Assembly (NCBI GenBank): GCA_002401155.1
Contig: NVSG01000002.1
Span: 125,023-189,022 of the forward strand
Direction of reading: 5' to 3'
From: Hyphomicrobiales bacterium
Lineage (GTDB): Bacteria > Pseudomonadota > Alphaproteobacteria > Rhizobiales > Rhizobiaceae
DNA length: 64,000 bases
Of this stretch, positions 5,877-19,258 are shown piece after piece. Below the pieces are notes generated by a model that saw only the letters and a program-made list of their open reading frames with translations, was not told where the DNA came from and did no database searches. A program made the position numbers and the translations under genes. Within the stretch, counting starts at the first letter, position 1, and every line of letters starts with the position of its first letter.

Positions 5877-6770
5877 TTATTCTGCGGCGAGAGGGCGGTT
5901 GCCTAGCATCGCGGCCTCCGGCATGCTCACAACAATATTCAGCAATTGGCGGATATCATCTGCCAGTTTTTCAAAATTCTCGGACTTCTGCATGGAATTT
6001 TCATCCATATATAGCCCGCGATTTATCTCAATTTGCACCGCATGAAGCCCGTTATCCGGGCGTCCATAATGTTGGGTAATAAAGCCGCCAGCATAAGGCT
6101 TGTTCAGCACCACTTTATAGCCGAGCGCTTTCAAATTATCGCGCAAACAAAGCGTAAGCTCTTCCGAACAGGAACTGCCAAACCGATCGCCAATCACAAA
6201 ATCAGGCCGTAGCCCATAGGGCGAACCGTGATGTGCAGATGGCATGGAGTGGCAATCGATCAGTACCGCATAGCCAAATCGCACATGGGTCTGAGCCAAA
6301 AGTCGCCGCAAACAAGCATGGTAGGGTTTATAAATATCTTCAATCCGCTCGAGGGCATCATTCAGCGATATTGGCCCATGATAAATCTCTTCGCGATCCG
6401 CAACAATTTTTGCAATCGTACCCAGCCCGGTGGAAACCCGCACCGATTGCGTGTTCACATAATCAGGTAATTGACTGTCGAACATTTTGGGGTCGAGTTC
6501 ATAGGGTTCCCGGTTCACATCCAAAAAGGCGCGAGGAAAATTGGCCACCAGCATCGGCAGGCCAATTGCAACGCCGCTGCCAAATAATTCATCCACCAAA
6601 AAATCTTCCGATTTCCGAATGGCAAAATCTGACAGTTGGACATTCGACATAAATGCGCTGGTATAATTGCGTCCGCTATGGGGGGAATTCAGGACAAACG
6701 GCACCCTTTGTACTGCCGGGCCATAGACCTCGAATGGCGGGTTGGAAGGGGTTTCGAATCCTGTAGTCAT
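5877..6770 (-). CDS. N-formylglutamate amidohydrolase family protein
   Basis: A 297-residue cytoplasmic amidohydrolase of the FGase family that splits N-formylglutamate to glutamate and formate, the last step of one histidine-degradation route. Diagnostic segments are LNSPHSGRNY near residue 27, FLDVNREPYELDP near 88 and LIDCHSMPS near 170, whose His and Asp residues bind metal, with a late ITQHYGRP and EINRGLY. The Rhizobiales often keep this gene outside a hut cluster, beside hisN and cpdR, as seen here, so its physiological substrate may be another formyl or acyl amino acid. The ATG at 6770 has only a weak ribosome site. Confidence 0.85.
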   Translation of the reverse strand: MTTGFETPSNPPFEVYGPAVQRVPFVLNSPHSGRNYTSAFMSNVQLSDFAIRKSEDFLVDELFGSGVAIGLPMLVANFPRAFLDVNREPYELDPKMFDSQLPDYVNTQSVRVSTGLGTIAKIVADREEIYHGPISLNDALERIEDIYKPYHACLRRLLAQTHVRFGYAVLIDCHSMPSAHHGSPYGLRPDFVIGDRFGSSCSEELTLCLRDNLKALGYKVVLNKPYAGGFITQHYGRPDNGLHAVQIEINRGLYMDENSMQKSENFEKLADDIRQLLNIVVSMPEAAMLGNRPLAAE

Positions 6771-9943: not shown

Positions 9944-12319
9944 CTATTCCAGATTGCTGATTTCCGGCGGGACAAAGGCTGTCACCTTTGGTGGAGTCTT
10001 ATCGAAGCGTTCGAGTTCAACCAGACAGGTTAATGCGCCCGGGCCTTGTGCCAATTCAGAAGTTGGAAGGTCCGCCGTTAAACTGTTGGGGTTTCCGTGT
10101 TTGCAGCAATTGGGATCATTGCTCCAGTCCGGATCGTACCATGCCCCCGTTGCAAGCATCACCACGCCCTCGCGAACATTTGCATCAATTCTGGCAACCG
10201 AAAGGCACGCACCGCGGTCATTGAATAACCGCACCATATCGCCATCTTTGATTTTGCGTTTGGCCGCATCGGATGGGTTTATGTTGCAGGGTTCTCTGCC
10301 CTTGATTTTTCCAGCTTGGCTATGACTGCTTTGGTCGAGCTGGCTGTGGAGGCGTCTTGTGGGCTGATGAGAAACCAGGTGCAAAGGATGCTTGGCTGTA
10401 TTTTCAGAGCCGAGCCATTCGATTGGTTCGTTCCATACCGGATGCCCCGGAATATTCTTCAGATTAAACCCTGCGATTTCTTCGCTGAATATTTCAATGA
10501 GCCCGGAGGGTGTGCTCAAAGGATGAGCGGCTGGGTCTGAGCGGAATTCTTCGAGCAATACTTTCGGCTCAGCAGGAGAATCGAGTTTGAGGAAACCTGC
10601 CTTTTTGAATGCATCATAGTCGGGGAGGGAGTAGCCAAGGTTCTCGCCTCGCTCCTTCGTTTCGCGATAGAGTTCGCGCAGCCACTCATCCTCGTTACGG
10701 CCTTCGGTAAAGGCTTCCAAAAAGTCAGTTGTTGAATTGCTGAGAGGCTGCAAGCGGCTTGCAAGACCAGCAAAAATATCACGGTCATTGCGTGCCTCGC
10801 CAAAAGGTTCCGCGACCTTTTGAGTGGCAAAGAAATAGTCATCTCTGGATGATCCCGATAGATCATTGCGCTCCAGCGATACGGTCGTTGGAAAGACAAT
10901 ATCCGCATGGCGGGCAAGGGGTGTCCAGAACGGTTCGTTGACGATCACCGTTTCAACCTGCTGCCATGCGCGGCGCAGTCGATTGAGATCCTGATGATGA
11001 TGAAACGGATTGCCACCAGCCCAATAGACCAGACCGATATCCGGATAAATATATTCCTTGCCGTCATATTGAAACGGCTTGCCGGGGTTCAACAACATAT
11101 CGGCAATTCGCGCGACGGGGATGAACCGATCAACAGGGTTTTTCCCTGTTGGTAGTGCCGCCCACGGCAGGTGCACACGGTCACTGCCAATGCTACTGAC
11201 GGCAGAAAGTCCCAGTGCAAAACCTGTCCCCGGCTTACCGATGCCGCCAAGCATTGCGGCTAAAACAACAACCATCCAATAGGGTTGTTCGCCGTTTTGT
11301 TGCCGGGTTAGCGACCAGCTTACAGAAATCATTGTCAGTGTGTTTGCCATGCGGCGAGCAAGAGTGATAATTGAATCAGCACTAATGCCGGTAATGTTCT
11401 CAGCCCATTGAGCATTCTTCGGAACGCCATCGCTGGTGCCCATCAAATATGGCAAAAACGCCTCGAAACCCACGCAATATTTTTCAAGAAATGCCTGATC
11501 GTGCAAGCCTTCATCGACAAGTGTATGAGCTAAGGCCAGCATCATCGCCACATCGGTATTTGGCTTGATCGCAAGCCAATCCGCATCCAGCTCTTCCATA
11601 GTGTCAGGAGCGGAAGGGCTGATGCTGACAAATTCAACACCTGCTTTTTTGGCCGCCATCATATCGGAAGCCTGAGAGTGGTTACCGATGCCGCCCGGGT
11701 TTATCTGTGCGTTTCTAACCGGCATGCCACCGAAGGCGACAACTAATTTTGCACCTTCTGCAATCGAACGCCACGATGTGTGCTCCAGCAAAAGCTTGTT
11801 TAGGGAGCCGGCCACATGAGGCATGATGACTTCAGCCGCTGCGTAGCTGTAGGTGTTTCGAGATGAAGTAAAGCCGCCGAAAAGATTTAAAAATCGCCGC
11901 ATCTGGCTTTGCGCATGGTGAAAACGGCCAGCACTGGCCCAGCCATAGGAGCCTGCGTAAATGCCTTCATTGCCTCGTTCGTCGCGAACACGGGCAAGTT
12001 CGCTAGCGGCTAGATCGAGTGCAAAATCCCATTCAACAGCAACAAAACTATCATTGCCGCGCCGGGTTCTATCGCTTGCTTTTCCGTGTTCCAGAAAACC
12101 ACATCGCACCATCGGTTTAACGATGCGGCAGGGACCGTCGCGAGTTTCCAACATGGCATCACCGATAGGCGATGGATCAGTGTCCTCTTCAAACCCATGC
12201 AGAGCCACCGGCTTGCCACTGTCCATTTCAATCCGGTAAGTGCCCCAATGCGCTGAGGCGATCGGCATTTTCGATAATTCATCAGAGCTTTTGATGCTAT
12301 TGCTTTTTATGATTGTCAT
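9944..12319 (-). CDS. Molybdopterin oxidoreductase, BisC/TorA/DMSO-reductase type
   Basis: About 791 residues with the molybdenum bis-MGD oxidoreductase layout of the S- or N-oxide reductase branch. The block SYGWASAGRFHHAQ (near residue 124) contains the Ser that ligates Mo in DMSO reductase, and no N-terminal FeS cysteine motif is present. Later motifs are WAGGNPFHHHQDLNRL and the C-terminal molybdopterin-binding domain with HPLHLVSHQPTRRLHSQLD and GVVMLATGAWYDP. No Tat signal is visible, so it should be cytoplasmic like BisC (biotin sulfoxide or methionine sulfoxide reduction). It follows the Lrp/AsnC gene by about 110 bases on the same strand. The TTG at 12337 is an alternative start. Exact substrate cannot be read from the sequence. 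Confidence 0.83.
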   Translation of the reverse strand: MTIIKSNSIKSSDELSKMPIASAHWGTYRIEMDSGKPVALHGFEEDTDPSPIGDAMLETRDGPCRIVKPMVRCGFLEHGKASDRTRRGNDSFVAVEWDFALDLAASELARVRDERGNEGIYAGSYGWASAGRFHHAQSQMRRFLNLFGGFTSSRNTYSYAAAEVIMPHVAGSLNKLLLEHTSWRSIAEGAKLVVAFGGMPVRNAQINPGGIGNHSQASDMMAAKKAGVEFVSISPSAPDTMEELDADWLAIKPNTDVAMMLALAHTLVDEGLHDQAFLEKYCVGFEAFLPYLMGTSDGVPKNAQWAENITGISADSIITLARRMANTLTMISVSWSLTRQQNGEQPYWMVVVLAAMLGGIGKPGTGFALGLSAVSSIGSDRVHLPWAALPTGKNPVDRFIPVARIADMLLNPGKPFQYDGKEYIYPDIGLVYWAGGNPFHHHQDLNRLRRAWQQVETVIVNEPFWTPLARHADIVFPTTVSLERNDLSGSSRDDYFFATQKVAEPFGEARNDRDIFAGLASRLQPLSNSTTDFLEAFTEGRNEDEWLRELYRETKERGENLGYSLPDYDAFKKAGFLKLDSPAEPKVLLEEFRSDPAAHPLSTPSGLIEIFSEEIAGFNLKNIPGHPVWNEPIEWLGSENTAKHPLHLVSHQPTRRLHSQLDQSSHSQAGKIKGREPCNINPSDAAKRKIKDGDMVRLFNDRGACLSVARIDANVREGVVMLATGAWYDPDWSNDPNCCKHGNPNSLTADLPTSELAQGPGALTCLVELERFDKTPPKVTAFVPPEISNLE

Positions 12320-12431
12320 TTCAACAAGATAGACCAAATGCGCGATAGGATAATATTAAAATATGCGGAGATTTGAAATTTTTTCTCGATTATCGGCGAA
12401 ATATGATGGATTTACGCATTAGTCATCCACA

Positions 12432-12899
12432 TTAATCATCCAATGGAACCGACATCCCCGTTTTGGCCCGACCCATAACAACCGATGTGCGAAAGCGCTT
12501 TATGTTGGAATCTCTAAAAAACATCCGGTGTGTCAGTTTTTCAAAATCATCCATGTCCTTGGCCAAGGCAATCAGGGCAAAATCCGCTTCGCCCGTAATA
12601 TAATAGCATTGTTGAATCTGGGGTTCCTCGCGCGCCTTCCTGCGAAACGCATCAACCTGATCAACACGTTCACGCTCAAGCTCAACCATTATCAGGAATG
12701 TCATATTATAGCCGACAGCTTCCGGCGAAATCTGCGCGGTCTCTTTGCTAATGACACCAATGGTTTTTAGATGCTTGATACGGCGTTGTACCGTGGCAAC
12801 CGAGAGGCCAGTATCATAGGCGATGGTCTCTAACCTCACGCGGGCATCGTCTTGTAAAAACTGTAGAATTTTTCTGTCGGTATCTTTTAACTCTTCCAT
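12432..12899 (-). CDS. Lrp/AsnC family transcriptional regulator
   Basis: A 155-residue regulator with an N-terminal winged helix-turn-helix (LKDTDRKILQFLQDDARVRL through TVQRRIKHLKTIGVI, residues 3-50) and a C-terminal RAM ligand-binding domain (ITGEADFALIALAKDM near 100). Such proteins sense amino acids and often control divergent transport or catabolic operons; an AsnC/Lrp member is typical of ectoine degradation clusters. It is divergent from the ABC-transporter operon starting at 13099, with 199 bases between, so it is the likely local regulator of that operon and perhaps of the molybdoenzyme behind it. AAGGAG precedes the ATG at good spacing. Confidence 0.9.
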   Translation of the reverse strand: MEELKDTDRKILQFLQDDARVRLETIAYDTGLSVATVQRRIKHLKTIGVISKETAQISPEAVGYNMTFLIMVELERERVDQVDAFRRKAREEPQIQQCYYITGEADFALIALAKDMDDFEKLTHRMFFRDSNIKRFRTSVVMGRAKTGMSVPLDD

Positions 12900-13098: not shown

Positions 13099-13146
13099 AT
13101 GACATTATCGAGCCTCATGCTTTCGGGAATTTTGGTCGATGAATAA
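13099..13146 (+). CDS. 15-codon leader ORF overlapping the ABC ATPase start
   Basis: ATG to TAA encoding MTLSSLMLSGILVDE, preceded by GGGAGGAGAA at ideal spacing, a stronger ribosome site than the ATPase gene has of its own. Its last codons overlap the ATPase ATG (13139), so translation of the transporter is likely coupled to the leader. It is Leu/Ser-rich, but no attenuator hairpins are evident. Too short for the ORF track. Confidence 0.5.
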   Translation: MTLSSLMLSGILVDE

Positions 13147-13912
13147 GATCATCGAATTTCAGGGTGTGTCGAAATCTTTCGGTGATTTGCAAGTGCTTGA
13201 AAACCTGAATTTGCATGTTATGAGCGGCGAAAAACTCGCACTTATTGGTCCCAGTGGTTCTGGAAAAACGACCATCCTGCGCATCCTGATGACCCTTGAA
13301 CCAATTGATAGCGGTATTGTCATGGTGGATGGGGATTATTTGTGGCATCAAAAAACCGACAATAAGCTTGAGCCTGCCAGCGAGAAACACCTGCACAAAA
13401 TGCGCCAAAACATTTGCATGGTGTTTCAGCAATTCAATCTTTTTCCGCATCTGACGGTGGTCGATAATATCGTGCAGCCGCAGGTTCTTATCAAAAAATC
13501 CAACAAGAATGACGCGCTTAACAAGGCAGAGGAACTTCTGGCGCTTGTTGGTCTTGAGGGGAAAGAATCCCAATATCCGCATCAACTTTCGGGCGGCCAG
13601 CAGCAGCGCGTTGCGATTGCCAGAGCCTTGGCGATGGACCCGAAAATCATGCTGTTTGACGAGGTCACATCGGCGCTTGATCCGGAATTGGTCGATGAGG
13701 TTCTAACCGTCCTGCACCAGCTGGCCGAGAGCACCGACACCACCATGCTGACCGTCACCCACGAGATGAATTTTGCCCGCGATTTTGCCGACCGTGTTCT
13801 TTTCTTTGATAAAGGAAAAATCGTTGAATCCGGTCCTCCCGACATGATTTTCACCAATCCCAAAGAAGCCCGAACTAGGGATTTCTTGAAGAATTTTATC
13901 GGAAAAATTTAA
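13139..13912 (+). CDS. Amino-acid-type ABC transporter ATPase, EhuA-like
   Basis: A 257-residue ATPase of the polar amino acid (GlnQ/HisP) family, which also includes EhuA of the ectoine importer. Walker A is GPSGSGKTT, the Q-loop VFQQFNLFPHL, signature LSGGQQQR, Walker B IMLFDEVTSALD and the H-loop VTHEM. An insertion (about residues 68-83, HQKTDNKLEPASEKH) before the Q-loop resembles that of EhuA-type ATPases. It is the first full gene of a seven-gene operon and energises the two permeases that follow. Its ATG lies in the leader ORF. Confidence 0.9.
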   Translation: MNKIIEFQGVSKSFGDLQVLENLNLHVMSGEKLALIGPSGSGKTTILRILMTLEPIDSGIVMVDGDYLWHQKTDNKLEPASEKHLHKMRQNICMVFQQFNLFPHLTVVDNIVQPQVLIKKSNKNDALNKAEELLALVGLEGKESQYPHQLSGGQQQRVAIARALAMDPKIMLFDEVTSALDPELVDEVLTVLHQLAESTDTTMLTVTHEMNFARDFADRVLFFDKGKIVESGPPDMIFTNPKEARTRDFLKNFIGKI

Positions 13913-13989
13913 CGATAAGAGGGAGGGGCAACAACAAAAATCAATCGAAAATACCAAAAAAAAGCAACTTAAGAGGAGTGAACAAAACA

Positions 13990-14841
13990 ATGTTAAAAAA
14001 TAAATTTTCCAAAGCGATAGCACCCATTATGTTGGGCGTTATGGCGCTGACAATATCTTCGGGCAGCGTCTTTGCTGATACTCTGGAGAAACTCAGAAAA
14101 CAGGGTTACGCGACCGTAGCTGTTGCCAATGAACCACCTTATAGCGACATCAAGGGCGATGGCTATGTCAGTGGCGCAGCACCCGATGTTGCTCGCGCAG
14201 TTATGAAAAAACTCGGCGTTCCTGAGCTAAAAGCCAAAGTGGTTTCCTACGGATCGATGATCCCGGCCCTGATGGCGCGCCGTGTTGATATGGCTACATC
14301 GGGACTTTACATCAAACCAAAGCGGTGTGAATCAATCATCTATTCAGAGCCTGATCTGTGCGGCGCCGAGGCATTTGCGGTTGCCAAAGGCAATCCTTTC
14401 AACATCAAGACATATGAAGACATTGGCAAAAACCCGAAGGTCACCATGACCACCTGTGCCGGTTGTGCCGAGGAAGCATACGCCCTTGAAAGAGGTGTTT
14501 CGCCGGATCAAATCAAGGTATTTACTGATCCGCCAAGCGGCATCAAAATGCTGCAACAGGGCCGCGTCAATGTCTTTGCATTGTCAGGACTTGGAACAAA
14601 AAATCTTCTTGAGAAAATGAATGATCCTAACCTTGAACTCGTCATGCCCGTAACAGGCGTTCCGATGGGGTGTGCCGGTGCTGCTTTCAATTCCGAAGAT
14701 ACAGCCTTCCGGGCCGCCTACGATAAAGCCCTAAAAGAACTCAAAGAAAGCGGCGAATTCGCCAAAATCATTGAGCCTTATGGTTTTTCAACCGCAGCAA
14801 CATTGAGCGTCAAACGCGACGACTTCTGCCCGGGCAACTAG
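13990..14841 (+). CDS. Periplasmic solute-binding protein, EhuB-like (family 3)
   Basis: A 283-residue binding protein with a signal peptide ending SGSVFA (cleavage near residue 30). The mature protein follows the ectoine-binding EhuB plan: VAVANEPPY at the start of lobe 1, YIKPKRCESIIYSEPD with the ligand-clamping Arg near residue 105, and PSGIKMLQQGRVNVFAL in lobe 2, ending in a PYGF block and a Cys-containing tail. Several extra cysteines (RCES, LCGAE, CAGCAEE, GCAG, FCPG) are unusual for a binding protein and may form disulfides. The ATG at 13990 has AGAGGAG upstream; the track's GTG at 13978 overlaps that site. Ligand may be ectoine-like or another cyclic or diamino acid. Confidence 0.85.
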   Translation: MLKNKFSKAIAPIMLGVMALTISSGSVFADTLEKLRKQGYATVAVANEPPYSDIKGDGYVSGAAPDVARAVMKKLGVPELKAKVVSYGSMIPALMARRVDMATSGLYIKPKRCESIIYSEPDLCGAEAFAVAKGNPFNIKTYEDIGKNPKVTMTTCAGCAEEAYALERGVSPDQIKVFTDPPSGIKMLQQGRVNVFALSGLGTKNLLEKMNDPNLELVMPVTGVPMGCAGAAFNSEDTAFRAAYDKALKELKESGEFAKIIEPYGFSTAATLSVKRDDFCPGN

Positions 14842-14858
14842 GCTCAATCTCAGCCACG

Positions 14859-14890
14859 TAATACTGCTCCCATTTTGGGGAGCAGTATTA
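14859..14890 (+). other. 13-bp perfect hairpin between binding-protein and permease genes
   Basis: TAATACTGCTCCC and GGGAGCAGTATTA pair perfectly around ATTTTG, followed by TTCTCAGG rather than a U-tract. Such hairpins commonly protect or partly terminate the mRNA after the binding-protein gene, giving it higher expression than the permeases. Confidence 0.8.
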
Positions 14891-14905
14891 TTCTCAGGTG
14901 ACATA

Positions 14906-15574
14906 ATGAACGAAGTTCTGACCTTTAGCCCGATCCTTATCGAGGGAACCATAACTACGATTGAGCTGACAATTGCCAGCGCGATCGTAGCGTTGCTGAT
15001 TTCGTTCATCGTCGGATTGGCCCGTTTTTCCAGACATCGGTTTGTTAGATGGACTGCCGTCGTTTATCTCGAATTTTTCCGTGGAACCTCGGCAATCGTG
15101 CAGATGTTTTTCATGTATTACGTGCTGCCGTTATTGGGGGTAAATCTATCGCCACTGCTAGCAGGAGTTATCGCCTGCGGTCTGAATATCGGTGCTTACG
15201 GATCAGAAATTGTTCGTGCTGCGGTGCAGTCCATCGGGCGTCCGCAACACGAGGCCGCGATCTCTCTAAATTATAACAGCTACCAGCTCTATCGTTATGT
15301 GTTGATACCGCAGGCGATCCCGATGATGATCCCAACCTTTGGAAACCTGCTGATAGAATTGTTGAAACTTACCGCCGTCGCATCGCTAATTACCATTTCC
15401 GATCTGACTTTCATGGCGCAAATTATCCGGGTTCAAACAGCTCTGACGCTCGAACCATTCCTGGTCATTCTGGTTATCTATTTCGCCATTTCCTCCATTC
15501 TTATCGCCATGACAAACCTGATTGCAAAGAAATTTTCCAAGGGCCGTAACACGATGCAAGCGGGGGGGAATTAG
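14906..15574 (+). CDS. ABC transporter permease, EhuC-like
   Basis: A 222-residue inner-membrane permease of the HisMQ family with about five membrane segments, beginning TTIELTIASAIVALLISFIVGL. The EAA loop reads EAAISLNYNSYQLYRYVLIPQAIPMMIP, which docks the ATPase. Paired with the next gene it should form the heterodimeric channel of the importer. AGGTG stands 5 bases before the ATG. Three-base spacing to the next gene shows tight coupling. Confidence 0.9.
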   Translation: MNEVLTFSPILIEGTITTIELTIASAIVALLISFIVGLARFSRHRFVRWTAVVYLEFFRGTSAIVQMFFMYYVLPLLGVNLSPLLAGVIACGLNIGAYGSEIVRAAVQSIGRPQHEAAISLNYNSYQLYRYVLIPQAIPMMIPTFGNLLIELLKLTAVASLITISDLTFMAQIIRVQTALTLEPFLVILVIYFAISSILIAMTNLIAKKFSKGRNTMQAGGN

Positions 15575-15576
15575 CC

Positions 15577-16239
15577 ATGGAATGGAGTTGGACTGTTGTT
15601 CTGGACGTCATGCCCAAAATGCTTGCGGGGTTGGTCATCACGATTCAGGCAACGTTTATCGGAGCCATCCTTGCCTATGTTTTAGGCTTGATGCTAGCCA
15701 TTTTAAAAATGTCGAAATCAAAACCATTGGCGTTTAGCGTTTATTGGTCGTCGGAATTTGTTCGCCGAACACCCCTGCTGGTTCAGCTATATTTCCTGTT
15801 TTATGTGCTCCCCGATTTTGGGATATTTCTTGAACCATTCACCGCGGGTGTTCTCGGGCTTGGCATTCACTTCAGCACCTACACATCCGAGGTGTTCAGA
15901 GCCGGAATTGAAAATGTCCCCAAAGGACAATGGGAAGCCGCTAAATCCCTCAATTACACGCCTTACCAGACCATGCGATATGTTATCCTGCCTCAGGCCA
16001 TCCCGCCAATGATCCCGCCCTTGGCTAATTATCTGATCACCATGTTTAAAGAGACCCCCTTATTGGCGGCGATCACTGTGGTTGAATTGTTCAATGCGGC
16101 GAACATTTACAGCAACAGTAATTACAAGTATTTAGAGCCGATGACTCTGGTGGGCGTGTTTTTCCTTCTGGTATCTGTTCCTGCCGCAATCGCTGCCAAT
16201 CGGTTGGAGCAAAAATTCAAACCGGAAGAGGTGAGATAA
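15577..16239 (+). CDS. ABC transporter permease, EhuD-like
   Basis: A 220-residue HisMQ-type permease, the partner of the preceding one. It has the same organisation: an N-terminal helix (MLAGLVITIQATFIGAILAYVLGL), the RRTPLLVQLYFLFYVLP segment and an EAA loop EAAKSLNYTPYQTMRYVILPQ. The last helix is followed by a short cytoplasmic tail. It starts two bases after the previous stop. Confidence 0.9.
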   Translation: MEWSWTVVLDVMPKMLAGLVITIQATFIGAILAYVLGLMLAILKMSKSKPLAFSVYWSSEFVRRTPLLVQLYFLFYVLPDFGIFLEPFTAGVLGLGIHFSTYTSEVFRAGIENVPKGQWEAAKSLNYTPYQTMRYVILPQAIPPMIPPLANYLITMFKETPLLAAITVVELFNAANIYSNSNYKYLEPMTLVGVFFLLVSVPAAIAANRLEQKFKPEEVR

Positions 16240-16245
16240 ATTCAC

Positions 16246-16293
16246 ATGGCTGAGATTCATCTATCCGACTTACCAATTAACATCATGCGTTAG
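16246..16293 (+). CDS. 15-codon mini-ORF before the PLP lyase
   Basis: ATG to TAG encoding MAEIHLSDLPINIMR, with AGAGGTGAGA about 10 bases upstream. It lies in the only sizeable gap of the operon, just before a PLP-enzyme start that lacks a clear ribosome site, so it could couple translation or be the relic of a lost gene. Coding status is unproven. Confidence 0.3.
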   Translation: MAEIHLSDLPINIMR

Positions 16294-16300
16294 ATTACAA

Positions 16301-17362
16301 ATGACAAATTATCTCCAACAACCATCCGGGGACCGTGCCTTCGTGCCCGATCCATCAAAACCCGCGCAACTTTTACGGGTCTGCCCGGCCTATAAAGAAA
16401 CGCCTGTTCTGGAAATCGCCCAGCCATTTGGTGGCATACTTCTTGCAAAAGATGAAACCCACAGAATGAATCTTGGCGCGTTCAAGGCGCTTGGCGGCGT
16501 CTATGCCGTGGCACAATTGATAGCGATGGAGTGGGAAAAACAAACAGGTGAAAAACTTGAACCTGATGATTTTGCCTCCGAAAGGATCAAGGCGTTTGCA
16601 AGCGGCCTGACATTTGTTTGTGCAAGTGCGGGCAATCACGGCATGGCCGTTGCTGCCGGTGCGGGTATTTTTGGTGCAAATGCCAGAATTCATTTGGCGC
16701 GGGAGATGCCTGACGCATTTGAAAAACGCCTTCAAGAGAAGGGGGCAAATGTTGTCAGATCAAGCCAGACTTATGACCAGAGCGTTGCCGAAGCATTGCG
16801 CGATGTGGAAGCAAGCGGCAACATTTTGCTGGCGGACGGGTCATGGCCCGGATACACCGTGCCACCTGCGCTCGTGATGGAGGGATACACCATCATTGCC
16901 GAAGAGATGAGGCGCGAATTCGAGGCAAAAAAACAATGGCCGAGCCATGTTTATTTGCAGGCTGGCGTTGGCGGATTGGCAGCGGCAATCACTTTTATGA
17001 TCCGTAAAAACTGGGCGGTACAACCTGAAATTACCATTGTCGAACCAGATGTAGCACCTTGTTTGATGGCCAGTTCAAAGGCTGGTAAAATGGTTACAGT
17101 TGAAGGCCCGGTTTCCAATATGGGACGACTGGATTGCAAGTCTCCCTCCATTCTGGCTTTCGATCTTCTGGAACGTTCCAACGTCACCTATATGACCGTA
17201 TCAGATGAAGAGGCAGAACAAGCCGTTGTAAAATTGGCAGAGAATAGCATTGCTACCACCCCGTCGGGCGCAGCAGGATTCGCCGGTCAAATTAAATCAT
17301 TGCCCAATGATCAAGGGGATGGATATAGTCCCCTCATCATTGTTTCAGAAGGGGCGCTATGA
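16301..17362 (+). CDS. PLP-dependent lyase of the diaminopropionate ammonia-lyase type
   Basis: A 353-residue fold-II PLP enzyme. The Schiff-base Lys lies in LGAFKALGG (near residue 63), the phosphate cup is GVGGLAAAI (near 224), and the segment ADGSWPGYTVPPALVMEGYT closely follows diaminopropionate ammonia-lyase (DpaL/YgeX). That family converts 2,3-diaminopropionate to pyruvate and ammonia. Where DpaL has TDGNHG with a catalytic Asp, this protein has SAGNHG, the threonine-dehydratase form, so the substrate may differ. It is also somewhat short for DpaL. In ectoine clusters this operon slot is held by another fold-II enzyme, EutB. The stop overlaps the M24 gene start (ATGA). Confidence 0.78.
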   Translation: MTNYLQQPSGDRAFVPDPSKPAQLLRVCPAYKETPVLEIAQPFGGILLAKDETHRMNLGAFKALGGVYAVAQLIAMEWEKQTGEKLEPDDFASERIKAFASGLTFVCASAGNHGMAVAAGAGIFGANARIHLAREMPDAFEKRLQEKGANVVRSSQTYDQSVAEALRDVEASGNILLADGSWPGYTVPPALVMEGYTIIAEEMRREFEAKKQWPSHVYLQAGVGGLAAAITFMIRKNWAVQPEITIVEPDVAPCLMASSKAGKMVTVEGPVSNMGRLDCKSPSILAFDLLERSNVTYMTVSDEEAEQAVVKLAENSIATTPSGAAGFAGQIKSLPNDQGDGYSPLIIVSEGAL

Positions 17363-18495
17363 ACAGTTCGGGGTTTCCGGATGGTGAATTTGAAGCACGG
17401 TGCGAGCGTGCACAAATTGCTATGCATGAAGCAAAACTGGACGCGCTGTTTTTCACCACCGAAGCAGAAATCCTCTATTTTGCAGGTTTTCGCACGGCGT
17501 TCTGGTTAAGCCCAACGCGGCCATGGTTTCTGATTTTACCTGCAAGCGGAAAACCGATTGCTGTCATTCCGGCAATTGGCGCAGATTTGATGGCTGGCAC
17601 ATGGATTGATGATATCCGCACATGGGGTTCGCCTCACGAAAATGATGATGGCATCTCCTTGCTGGCTTCGGTGCTGAAAAATTATTCAAACATTGGAATG
17701 CTAAAAGGGCGCGAAAGTGGTTTGCGCATGCCGTTGGCAGATTATGAAACCCTTCTGGGCAAGCTTCTCGGTACAAATTTTCATAATGCAAGTTCGTTGG
17801 TGCAATCCCTTCGGATAGTGAAATCCGATGCCGAAATTGAAAAAACCACTGCGATTTGCCAAATCGCTTCTGCCTCTTTCGCCAATGCAAATCAGTTGTT
17901 TCATGTGGGCCAACCACTTGATCAGGTGTTCAAGGCTTTCAAGATTGAACTGCTCAAGAATGGCGCCGAAGAAGTGCCCTATCTGGTGGGTGGTGCCGGG
18001 CAAGGCGGTTACCGCGATGTGATCTCGCCGCCCGATAAAACACCGATACAATCGGGCGATATTTTGATGCTGGATACGGGCGCGACGCTTGAAGGATATT
18101 ATTGTGATTTCGATCGAAACTTTGCCTTTGGTAGCGCCAGTGACGAGGCGTTGAAAACCTACGACATCTTATATCGAGCGACCGATGCAGCCATCAATGC
18201 TGCCAGACCCGGCATCAAATGCAGCGAGTTATGCGTCATCATGCAGGATATTATTTCACAAAATAGTGGCGATGTGGGGCGGCTGGGGCATGGGCTTGGT
18301 ATTCAATTGACGGAACATCCTTCGCTGGTTTCGTTTGATCAAACGGTCATGCAGGCAGGCATGGTGATGACCATTGAACCAAGCATGAGCATGAGCGACG
18401 GGCTTATGATGGTACATGAGGAGAACATCGTTATTATGGATGGCGAAGCTTCATTGCTCAGCGAACGAGCACCTTGCGAACTGCCTATTTTGTGA
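17359..18495 (+). CDS. M24-family metallohydrolase (Xaa-Pro peptidase-like)
   Basis: A 378-residue pita-bread-fold enzyme: a creatinase-type N-terminal domain (1-150) and a catalytic domain with all five metal ligands, DTGATLEGYYCDFDRNF (two Asp), GHGLGIQLTEHPSL (His), IEPSMS (Glu) and VHEEN (Glu). It therefore should hydrolyse a C-N bond, such as a dipeptide or a cyclic or acylated amino acid. Ectoine hydrolase DoeA/EutD belongs to this family, but I do not see its N-terminal signature here. It overlaps the preceding gene by 4 bases and is followed after 19 bases by the EutA-like gene. Confidence 0.85.
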   Translation: MNSSGFPDGEFEARCERAQIAMHEAKLDALFFTTEAEILYFAGFRTAFWLSPTRPWFLILPASGKPIAVIPAIGADLMAGTWIDDIRTWGSPHENDDGISLLASVLKNYSNIGMLKGRESGLRMPLADYETLLGKLLGTNFHNASSLVQSLRIVKSDAEIEKTTAICQIASASFANANQLFHVGQPLDQVFKAFKIELLKNGAEEVPYLVGGAGQGGYRDVISPPDKTPIQSGDILMLDTGATLEGYYCDFDRNFAFGSASDEALKTYDILYRATDAAINAARPGIKCSELCVIMQDIISQNSGDVGRLGHGLGIQLTEHPSLVSFDQTVMQAGMVMTIEPSMSMSDGLMMVHEENIVIMDGEASLLSERAPCELPIL

Positions 18496-18514
18496 GACCC
18501 GGAGGGACAACAAT

Positions 18515-19258
18515 TTGAAACTACCATTCTTACTGGACGATGGGGCTGCAAGCAAAGCGGCGCTCGGATTGATAGTCCTTCAAATGGATGAAACGCTGGA
18601 GGCAGAACTCCGCACGGTTTTCAACCAGCCGGGTGTCGCGCTTTTTCATACCCGCATCCCTTCAGCGGAAGAAATTACACCGCAAACTTTGATGCAAATG
18701 GAAAACGAATTGCCAGCAATTGCTGGTCTGTTACCTTCAACCCATCCACTGGATGTGGTCGGCTATGGCTGTACATCAGGAGCAACAATTATTGGTTCGG
18801 ATAAGATTGCCGCGCTGGTCAATCAGGTCCATCCAGCCGCGAAAGTTACCGATCCAATCAAAGCCGTGATTGCCGCTCTTCAACATCTCAACATTTCAAA
18901 AATCGGATTTATCACGCCCTATGTGGCGGAAGTCTCAGAGGCAATGCGCGATTTGCTGAGCAACAACGGTATTTCCGTATCAGGTGTCGCATCGTTCGAA
19001 CAAAGCCGGGACCCGGTCGTTGCCAGAATTTCGCCAGCCTCAATATTGGATGCTATCATCGCCACGGGAGAGGACGATAATATCGATGCTGTTTTCGTTT
19101 CCTGCACCAATTTACGTTGCTTCGATATCATTGAACAAGCAGAGGAAAAAATCAGAAAACCTGTGATTTCGAGCAATCAGGCTCTGGCATGGCACATGCT
19201 AAAACTTGCCGGTTTACCGACATGGTCAATGGGGCCGGGAAGATTGTTTGGTTCCTGA
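18515..19258 (+). CDS. EutA-like / Asp-Glu racemase superfamily protein, TTG start
   Basis: A 247-residue protein of the family of maleate isomerase, arylmalonate decarboxylase and EutA (Asp/Glu/hydantoin racemase superfamily). The two catalytic cysteines are visible in VGYGCTSGATIIG (near residue 86) and VSCTNLRC (near 192). The track start at 18416 lies inside the M24 gene; a TTG at 18515 is preceded by GGAGGG eight bases upstream and begins directly at the family N-terminus (LPFLLDDG). EutA works in hydroxyectoine use, probably as an isomerase. Last gene of the operon. Confidence 0.85.
   Translation: MKLPFLLDDGAASKAALGLIVLQMDETLEAELRTVFNQPGVALFHTRIPSAEEITPQTLMQMENELPAIAGLLPSTHPLDVVGYGCTSGATIIGSDKIAALVNQVHPAAKVTDPIKAVIAALQHLNISKIGFITPYVAEVSEAMRDLLSNNGISVSGVASFEQSRDPVVARISPASILDAIIATGEDDNIDAVFVSCTNLRCFDIIEQAEEKIRKPVISSNQALAWHMLKLAGLPTWSMGPGRLFGS

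Follow-up and report, generated by a model that had tools for sequence, protein, structure and literature searches.

A cassette of a diaminopropionate-ammonia-lyase-like enzyme, a metallo-M24 hydrolase and an EutA-like racemase joined to an EhuABCD-type importer: a candidate side-branch of ectoine-type catabolism

A 64,000-nucleotide stretch of the Hyphomicrobiales contig NVSG01000002.1 (the window) carries an operon that joins an ectoine-type EhuABCD importer to a cassette of three genes encoding a pyridoxal phosphate (PLP) lyase, an M24 metallohydrolase and an EutA-like protein. The contig that holds the operon is 903 kb long, and the genome, at 2.8 Mb, is 66% complete. A preliminary description of this DNA had proposed seven genes with a divergent regulator, and the open reading frame (ORF) listing of the window confirms all of them: seven ORFs on the + strand at 13099-19258, and a Lrp/AsnC-family gene at 12432-12899 (-), whose product probably regulates the operon. 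The importer genes encode an EhuA-type ATPase (13139-13912; TIGR03005, 376.5 bits, cut-off 345.4), an EhuB-type substrate-binding protein (13978-14841, exact start uncertain; TIGR02995, 289.7 bits, cut-off 190.9) and EhuC- and EhuD-type permeases (14906-15574 and 15577-16239; NCBIfam models, 234.8 bits against a cut-off of 197 and 287.5 bits against 205). They are followed by a short (353-residue) diaminopropionate-ammonia-lyase-like PLP fold-II enzyme (16301-17362), assigned by sequence, tree and structural model, a prolidase-type M24 metallohydrolase (17359-18495) and an EutA-like two-cysteine racemase or isomerase (18515-19258). The ORF listed for the last gene starts at 18416 and overlaps the M24 gene; an alternative TTG at 18515, located behind GGAGG and shortly past the M24 stop codon, looks the likelier start.

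The operon is shared with a sister genome, the marine metagenome-assembled genome NORP335 (locus L088), in which the gene order is identical from a BisC/TorA-type molybdopterin S/N-oxide reductase gene through to the EutA-like gene. The window copy of the reductase gene (9944-12337, -; TIGR00509, 928.7 bits, below the cut-off of 1017.6) shares the strand of the Lrp gene. Protein identities between the two genomes are 79-94%, with the M24 proteins at 82%, and the nonsynonymous to synonymous rate ratio (dN/dS) is <0.08 for every computable gene at synonymous sites that are near saturation; the Lrp gene was not computable. The identical order and the low dN/dS at these sites indicate that the operon genes, including BisC, are under purifying selection and that all parts look functional, and on the same sequence comparison the gene arrangement is judged not to be due to chance. 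A BisC-type gene adjoins the cassette in three genomes, namely in the window, in L088 (736-3114) and in L063 (3615-6023), where it begins 20 bp after the lyase gene.

All four importer subunits score above the NCBIfam cut-offs for ectoine equivalogs. The best match of the EhuB protein, aligned along its length, is 2q88, the ectoine-bound EhuB of Sinorhizobium meliloti, and its seven pocket positions read E-Y-Y-Y-R-A-E versus E-F-Y-F-R-T-E in that protein. Glu21, Tyr60, Arg85 and Glu134 are kept, and positions 24 and 80 are aromatic. Tyr24 and Ala133 are variants accepted in other EhuB proteins, and Tyr80 is not among the variants given in the same paper (PMC6915088). By its sequence the importer is genuinely EhuB-like with the ectoine pocket kept, and a ligand of the ectoine type is predicted.

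The PLP enzyme has its best NCBIfam match in a diaminopropionate ammonia-lyase model at 268.3 bits, under the cut-off of 276. It scores 175.5 bits on a second model of this type (cut-off 532) and 41.4 and 26.7 bits on the EutB models (cut-off 413). The AlphaFold model of the enzyme has a pLDDT of 90.6, and its best PDB matches are 2,3-diaminopropionate (DAP) lyases with TM scores of about 0.8. YgeX/DpaL (4d9m, 5ygr) is the top match in both sequence and fold; with the Escherichia coli protein as the reference, Lys62 corresponds to the PLP lysine Lys77, and Asp179 to Asp189, a residue without an equivalent in EutB. The window enzyme differs from YgeX/DpaL in having 27% identity to it, in being 45 residues shorter, in forming a separate clade and in carrying Ala110 at the position of Asp120. 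In E. coli YgeX, Asp120 serves as the base acting on the D isomer of DAP, and its replacement by Ala would predict an L-selective lyase. The tree also places the enzyme outside the EutB clade, and on that basis its identification as a diverged EutB was rejected. The trees for the lyase, M24 and EutA-like proteins were midpoint-rooted, quick searches produced two of them and some of their rows sit on long branches, and only clade separation was used from them.

The M24 protein scores 57.2 and 33.9 bits on the DoeA models, with cut-offs of 575 and 613, and is separated from the DoeA clade in the tree. Prolidases are its closest relatives by sequence and its nearest folds. The two-domain creatinase/prolidase fold is common to the window protein and DoeA/EutD (6twk, TM 0.87 normalized by query), although the DoeA structures (6twj, 6twk) stand further down the list of matches at 18-19% identity. 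The two families differ at the metal site. The D-D-H-E-E ligand set, which in the window protein comprises Asp239, Asp250, His311, Glu340 and Glu355, is complete in 123 of the 124 cassette M24 proteins, whereas the corresponding positions read E-P-Y-M-E in all 18 DoeA proteins examined and the metal site is lost. The tree and the metal positions led to the rejection of DoeA as the identity of the M24 protein. A dimethylsulfoniopropionate lyase of the DddP type was left as a weak candidate, with DddP only a distant fold match. Further M24 genes lacking the metal ligands (C-G-R-D-D) occur with an arylmalonate-decarboxylase/EutA-like gene in L083 (17144-18729), L099 (5199-7139) and L145 (17542-19591), possibly as another M24-racemase pair. 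On a Mesorhizobium plasmid (L079, 7087-10155), an M24 gene of the cassette type (37%) adjoins a D-amino acid dehydrogenase gene, a pairing in which D/L stereochemistry may be relevant to the substrates.

The EutA-like protein scores 163.8 bits on the EutA model (cut-off 318) and has both active-site cysteines of the EutA/Asp-Glu racemase superfamily. These cysteines are common to EutA and to a racemase encoded on S. meliloti pSymA, but the cassette proteins form a clade of their own apart from canonical EutA, and this clade lies nearer the S. meliloti racemase. The pSymA gene is clustered with an annotated 2-amino-thiazoline-4-carboxylate (ATC) hydrolase and an N-carbamoylase-type M20 protein (L081, 8857-11550), which suggests that EutA-family enzymes racemize several cyclic amidine-like acids. 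The same relationship is compatible with a sulfur heterocycle of the thiazoline-4-carboxylate type, or an S-oxide, as the cassette substrate: the BisC enzyme would reduce the S-oxide, the EutA-like enzyme would racemize, and the lyase would strip sulfur from cysteine. The BisC gene beside the cassette in the three genomes fits this scheme, as does a cystathionine-beta-lyase-family gene at the lyase position in Aminobacter SR38. We nevertheless consider it very improbable, given that the survey of M24 loci described below found BisC in almost none of the other cassettes and ATC hydrolase in no cassette, and that the EhuB pocket is of the ectoine type.

The neighborhood resembles the S. meliloti EhuABCD-EutABCDE cluster in combining EhuABCD, an EutA-family protein, an M24 protein, a fold-II PLP enzyme and an AsnC-type regulator. 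It differs in that the PLP enzyme is DAP-lyase-like, the M24 protein is a metalloenzyme outside DoeA, EutC and EutE/DoeB are absent from the operon and no EnuR was seen. The preliminary description had recognized the EhuABCD-like importer, a DAP-lyase-like enzyme distinct from EutB, an M24 protein distinct from DoeA and an operon without EutC and EutE, and each of these assignments is upheld by the scores, pocket residues, phylogeny and metal ligands given above. Two outcomes that would have refuted that description, a lyase inside the EutB clade and an M24 protein inside DoeA, did not occur.

A gene-neighborhood survey of the three genes, which the preliminary description had suggested, was performed by scanning the M24 alignment against one genome per species and returned 80 loci with 53-82% identity. 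Neighbors within 6 kb of the M24 gene were counted in the 62 well-flanked loci (≥4 kb on both sides, window included). The lyase and the EutA-like gene were each present in 52 of the 62, and both in 44/62; an Lrp gene was found in 32/62 and an M20 amidohydrolase in 29/62. The trio is a widespread cassette in marine bacteria that is common in marine alphaproteobacteria, usually in genomes that also carry DoeA, and a literature search for DAP-lyases with ectoine or with Rhodobacteraceae catabolism retrieved no relevant description of it. The importers vary among EhuABCD, other ABC, TRAP and BCCT systems; EhuABCD, TRAP and BCCT are the transporter classes reported for ectoine clusters (PMC13188858). 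The putative Gram-positive ectoine clusters in that report are similar in having an extra EutD-type M24 gene and an M20 (AbgB) gene beside EutB/C, but they use EutB and EutC, and a DAP-lyase is not mentioned. A cassette sub-variant contains a sarcosine-oxidase/GcvT-like FAD enzyme (L083, L136, L151, L159, L133, L124), often accompanied by a PhyH dioxygenase, a GntR/UTRA regulator or both, and its members with a substrate-binding protein have the pocket I-W/F-W-Y-R-N-T. Demethylation of beta-N-methylamino-L-alanine by the FAD/GcvT-like oxidase (L083) was considered and left as a weak candidate.

Two DAP-lyase sub-families occupy the same cassette slot. Vibrio cortegadensis encodes a true DpaL (565 bits, cut-off 532) and RidA beside the same M24, a BCCT transporter and an M20 protein. 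These arrangements point to a cassette chemistry in which a diamino acid, or a compound closely analogous to one, undergoes beta-elimination. One form of this chemistry starts from a solute based on DAP, either an N-acyl-DAP or a five-membered cyclic amidine homologous to ectoine, that would be hydrolyzed to DAP, which the lyase would cleave into pyruvate and ammonia. The membership of the window lyase and the 395-residue cassette lyases in the DAP-lyase superfamily, with the active-site Asp missing from EutB, agrees with such a route, as do the Vibrio DpaL and RidA genes beside M24 and M20 and the similarity of the cassette M20 proteins to DoeB2. The N-acetyl-diaminobutyrate deacetylase DoeB2 is the top or second model for these proteins at about 312-318 bits, below its cut-off of 550. 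Against a DAP solute, Ala replaces Asp120 of YgeX in the window lyase, the family score is just below the cut-off, and we know of no abundant natural N-acyl-DAP or cyclic-amidine DAP compound. We regard a DAP solute as possible but rather doubtful.

The relationship of the cassette to ectoine catabolism was assessed in a class-wide sample of 317 alphaproteobacterial genomes. DoeA occurs in 44 genomes and the cassette M24 in 40, with both in 32, which corresponds to an odds ratio of 88 (p 1.4e-26, uncorrected for genome relatedness). The unrelated catabolic gene hutU, which served as an ecology control, has an odds ratio of 7.5 with M24, and the DoeA-M24 odds ratios within the hutU strata are 48 and 100. 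The M24 and DoeA genes are <13 kb apart in five genomes where about 0.2 are expected (chance about 2e-6), and the order lyase-M24-EutA-doeA-doeB is found in L089 and L209. A general scavenging role, with N-acyl amino acids or imido-dipeptides as substrates and the ectoine link reduced to shared ecology, could account for the closeness of the M24 sequence and fold to prolidases, the eight of 40 cassette carriers in which DoeA was not found and the co-occurrence of hutU. It is an unlikely explanation, as the DoeA association is far above that of hutU and persists in the strata, direct runs with doeA-doeB exist and the EhuB pocket is kept.

The runs in L089 and L209 place lyase-M24-EutA directly before doeA-doeB, where eutABC would be expected. 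EutABC is needed for 5-hydroxyectoine use in Ruegeria pomeroyi by reactions that are unknown (PMC8739950), and the cassette enzymes might replace EutABC in this job. Ring opening and deacetylation would then give 3-hydroxy-2,4-diaminobutyrate, which the lyase would dehydrate and deaminate to 4-amino-2-oxobutanoate. The EhuB-type importer is consistent with this branch, and so is the sister genome, which carries Lrp-doeA-doeB-atf on another contig and has no EutB at E <= 1e-70. Against it, EutB is equally common among DoeA genomes with the cassette (14/32) and without it (6/12, p 0.75), a complete eutBC-doeAB island lies no more than about 10 kb from the cassette in one genome (G586), and the cassette has no EutC-like reductase. 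The branch appears more doubtful than probable, and 5-hydroxyectoine and a DAP analogue are rated about equal as substrates. The absence of exclusion across the 44 DoeA genomes also led to the rejection of substitution for EutB as the sole explanation of the cassette. Because EutB is equally frequent with and without it and 8/40 carriers have no detected DoeA, the cassette supplements ectoine catabolism and is no plain replacement for it. The variant operon with a swapped EutB envisaged in the preliminary description gives way to a widespread separate cassette that mostly accompanies canonical DoeA.

The balance of these data leans slightly toward an undescribed side-branch of ectoine-type catabolism, in which an ectoine-type solute is imported, hydrolyzed and then subjected to beta-elimination. 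EhuABCD would import the solute, a cyclic amidine or an N-acylated diamino acid, and the EutA-like enzyme, with its two conserved cysteines, would then invert the stereocenter beside the carboxylate. The prolidase-type M24 enzyme, with its intact metal site, would next hydrolyze the ring or amide C-N bond. The alpha-amine would be freed by a deacylase, represented by the DoeB2-like M20 protein in many relatives and the adjacent DoeB in L089/L209, and presumably encoded elsewhere in the window genome. The fold and residues of the DAP-lyase-like enzyme suggest that it would release a 2-oxo acid and ammonia from the freed amino acid. The cassette would thus be attached to, yet distinct from, the EutABCDE/DoeAB pathway. 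This scheme is based on gene content, conservation, protein families, residues, co-occurrence and linkage, from which we infer the substrate and reactions. The preliminary description had deduced a cyclic or N-acylated diamino acid that is hydrolyzed, isomerized and deaminated; the substrate class gains indirect support from the Vibrio DpaL and the DoeB2-like M20 proteins, and the individual steps stay putative.

Several observations weigh against the side-branch. In addition to the EutB frequencies and the carriers lacking DoeA, the 66%-complete window genome yields no DoeA, DoeB or EutC above cut-off and no EutB at E <= 1e-90, and the doeA/eutD-doeB/eutE pair is absent from the window itself. 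The window operon has no M20 gene. Many cassettes are without an adjacent transporter, and some substrate-binding proteins have a different pocket (IWWYRNT). A prolidase-like M24 enzyme could act on quite different amides, and part of the co-occurrence may reflect an ecology that marine copiotrophs have in common. Outside the operon and 3 kb from BisC, the window also contains an N-formylglutamate-amidohydrolase family gene (5880-6770, -) adjoining an inositol-monophosphatase family gene.

The enzymology of EutABC and the removal of hydroxyectoine are an acknowledged gap (PMC8739950), and the interest of the cassette derives from this unsolved neighboring chemistry. The cassette genes are presently annotated piecemeal as a peptidase, a racemase and an amino-acid lyase. 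With somewhat less than even confidence, they could represent a dedicated, unrecognized marine pathway of epimerase, metallo-M24 hydrolase, M20 deacylase and DAP-lyase-type eliminase for 5-hydroxyectoine or a natural ectoine analogue that bypasses EutABC and ends in a 2-oxo acid, not aspartate. By combining a PLP enzyme of another kind with an M24 protein that is a true metalloenzyme and a racemase with two cysteines, this conserved cassette linked to ectoine offers a testable second route, or a hint of a further such solute in seawater.

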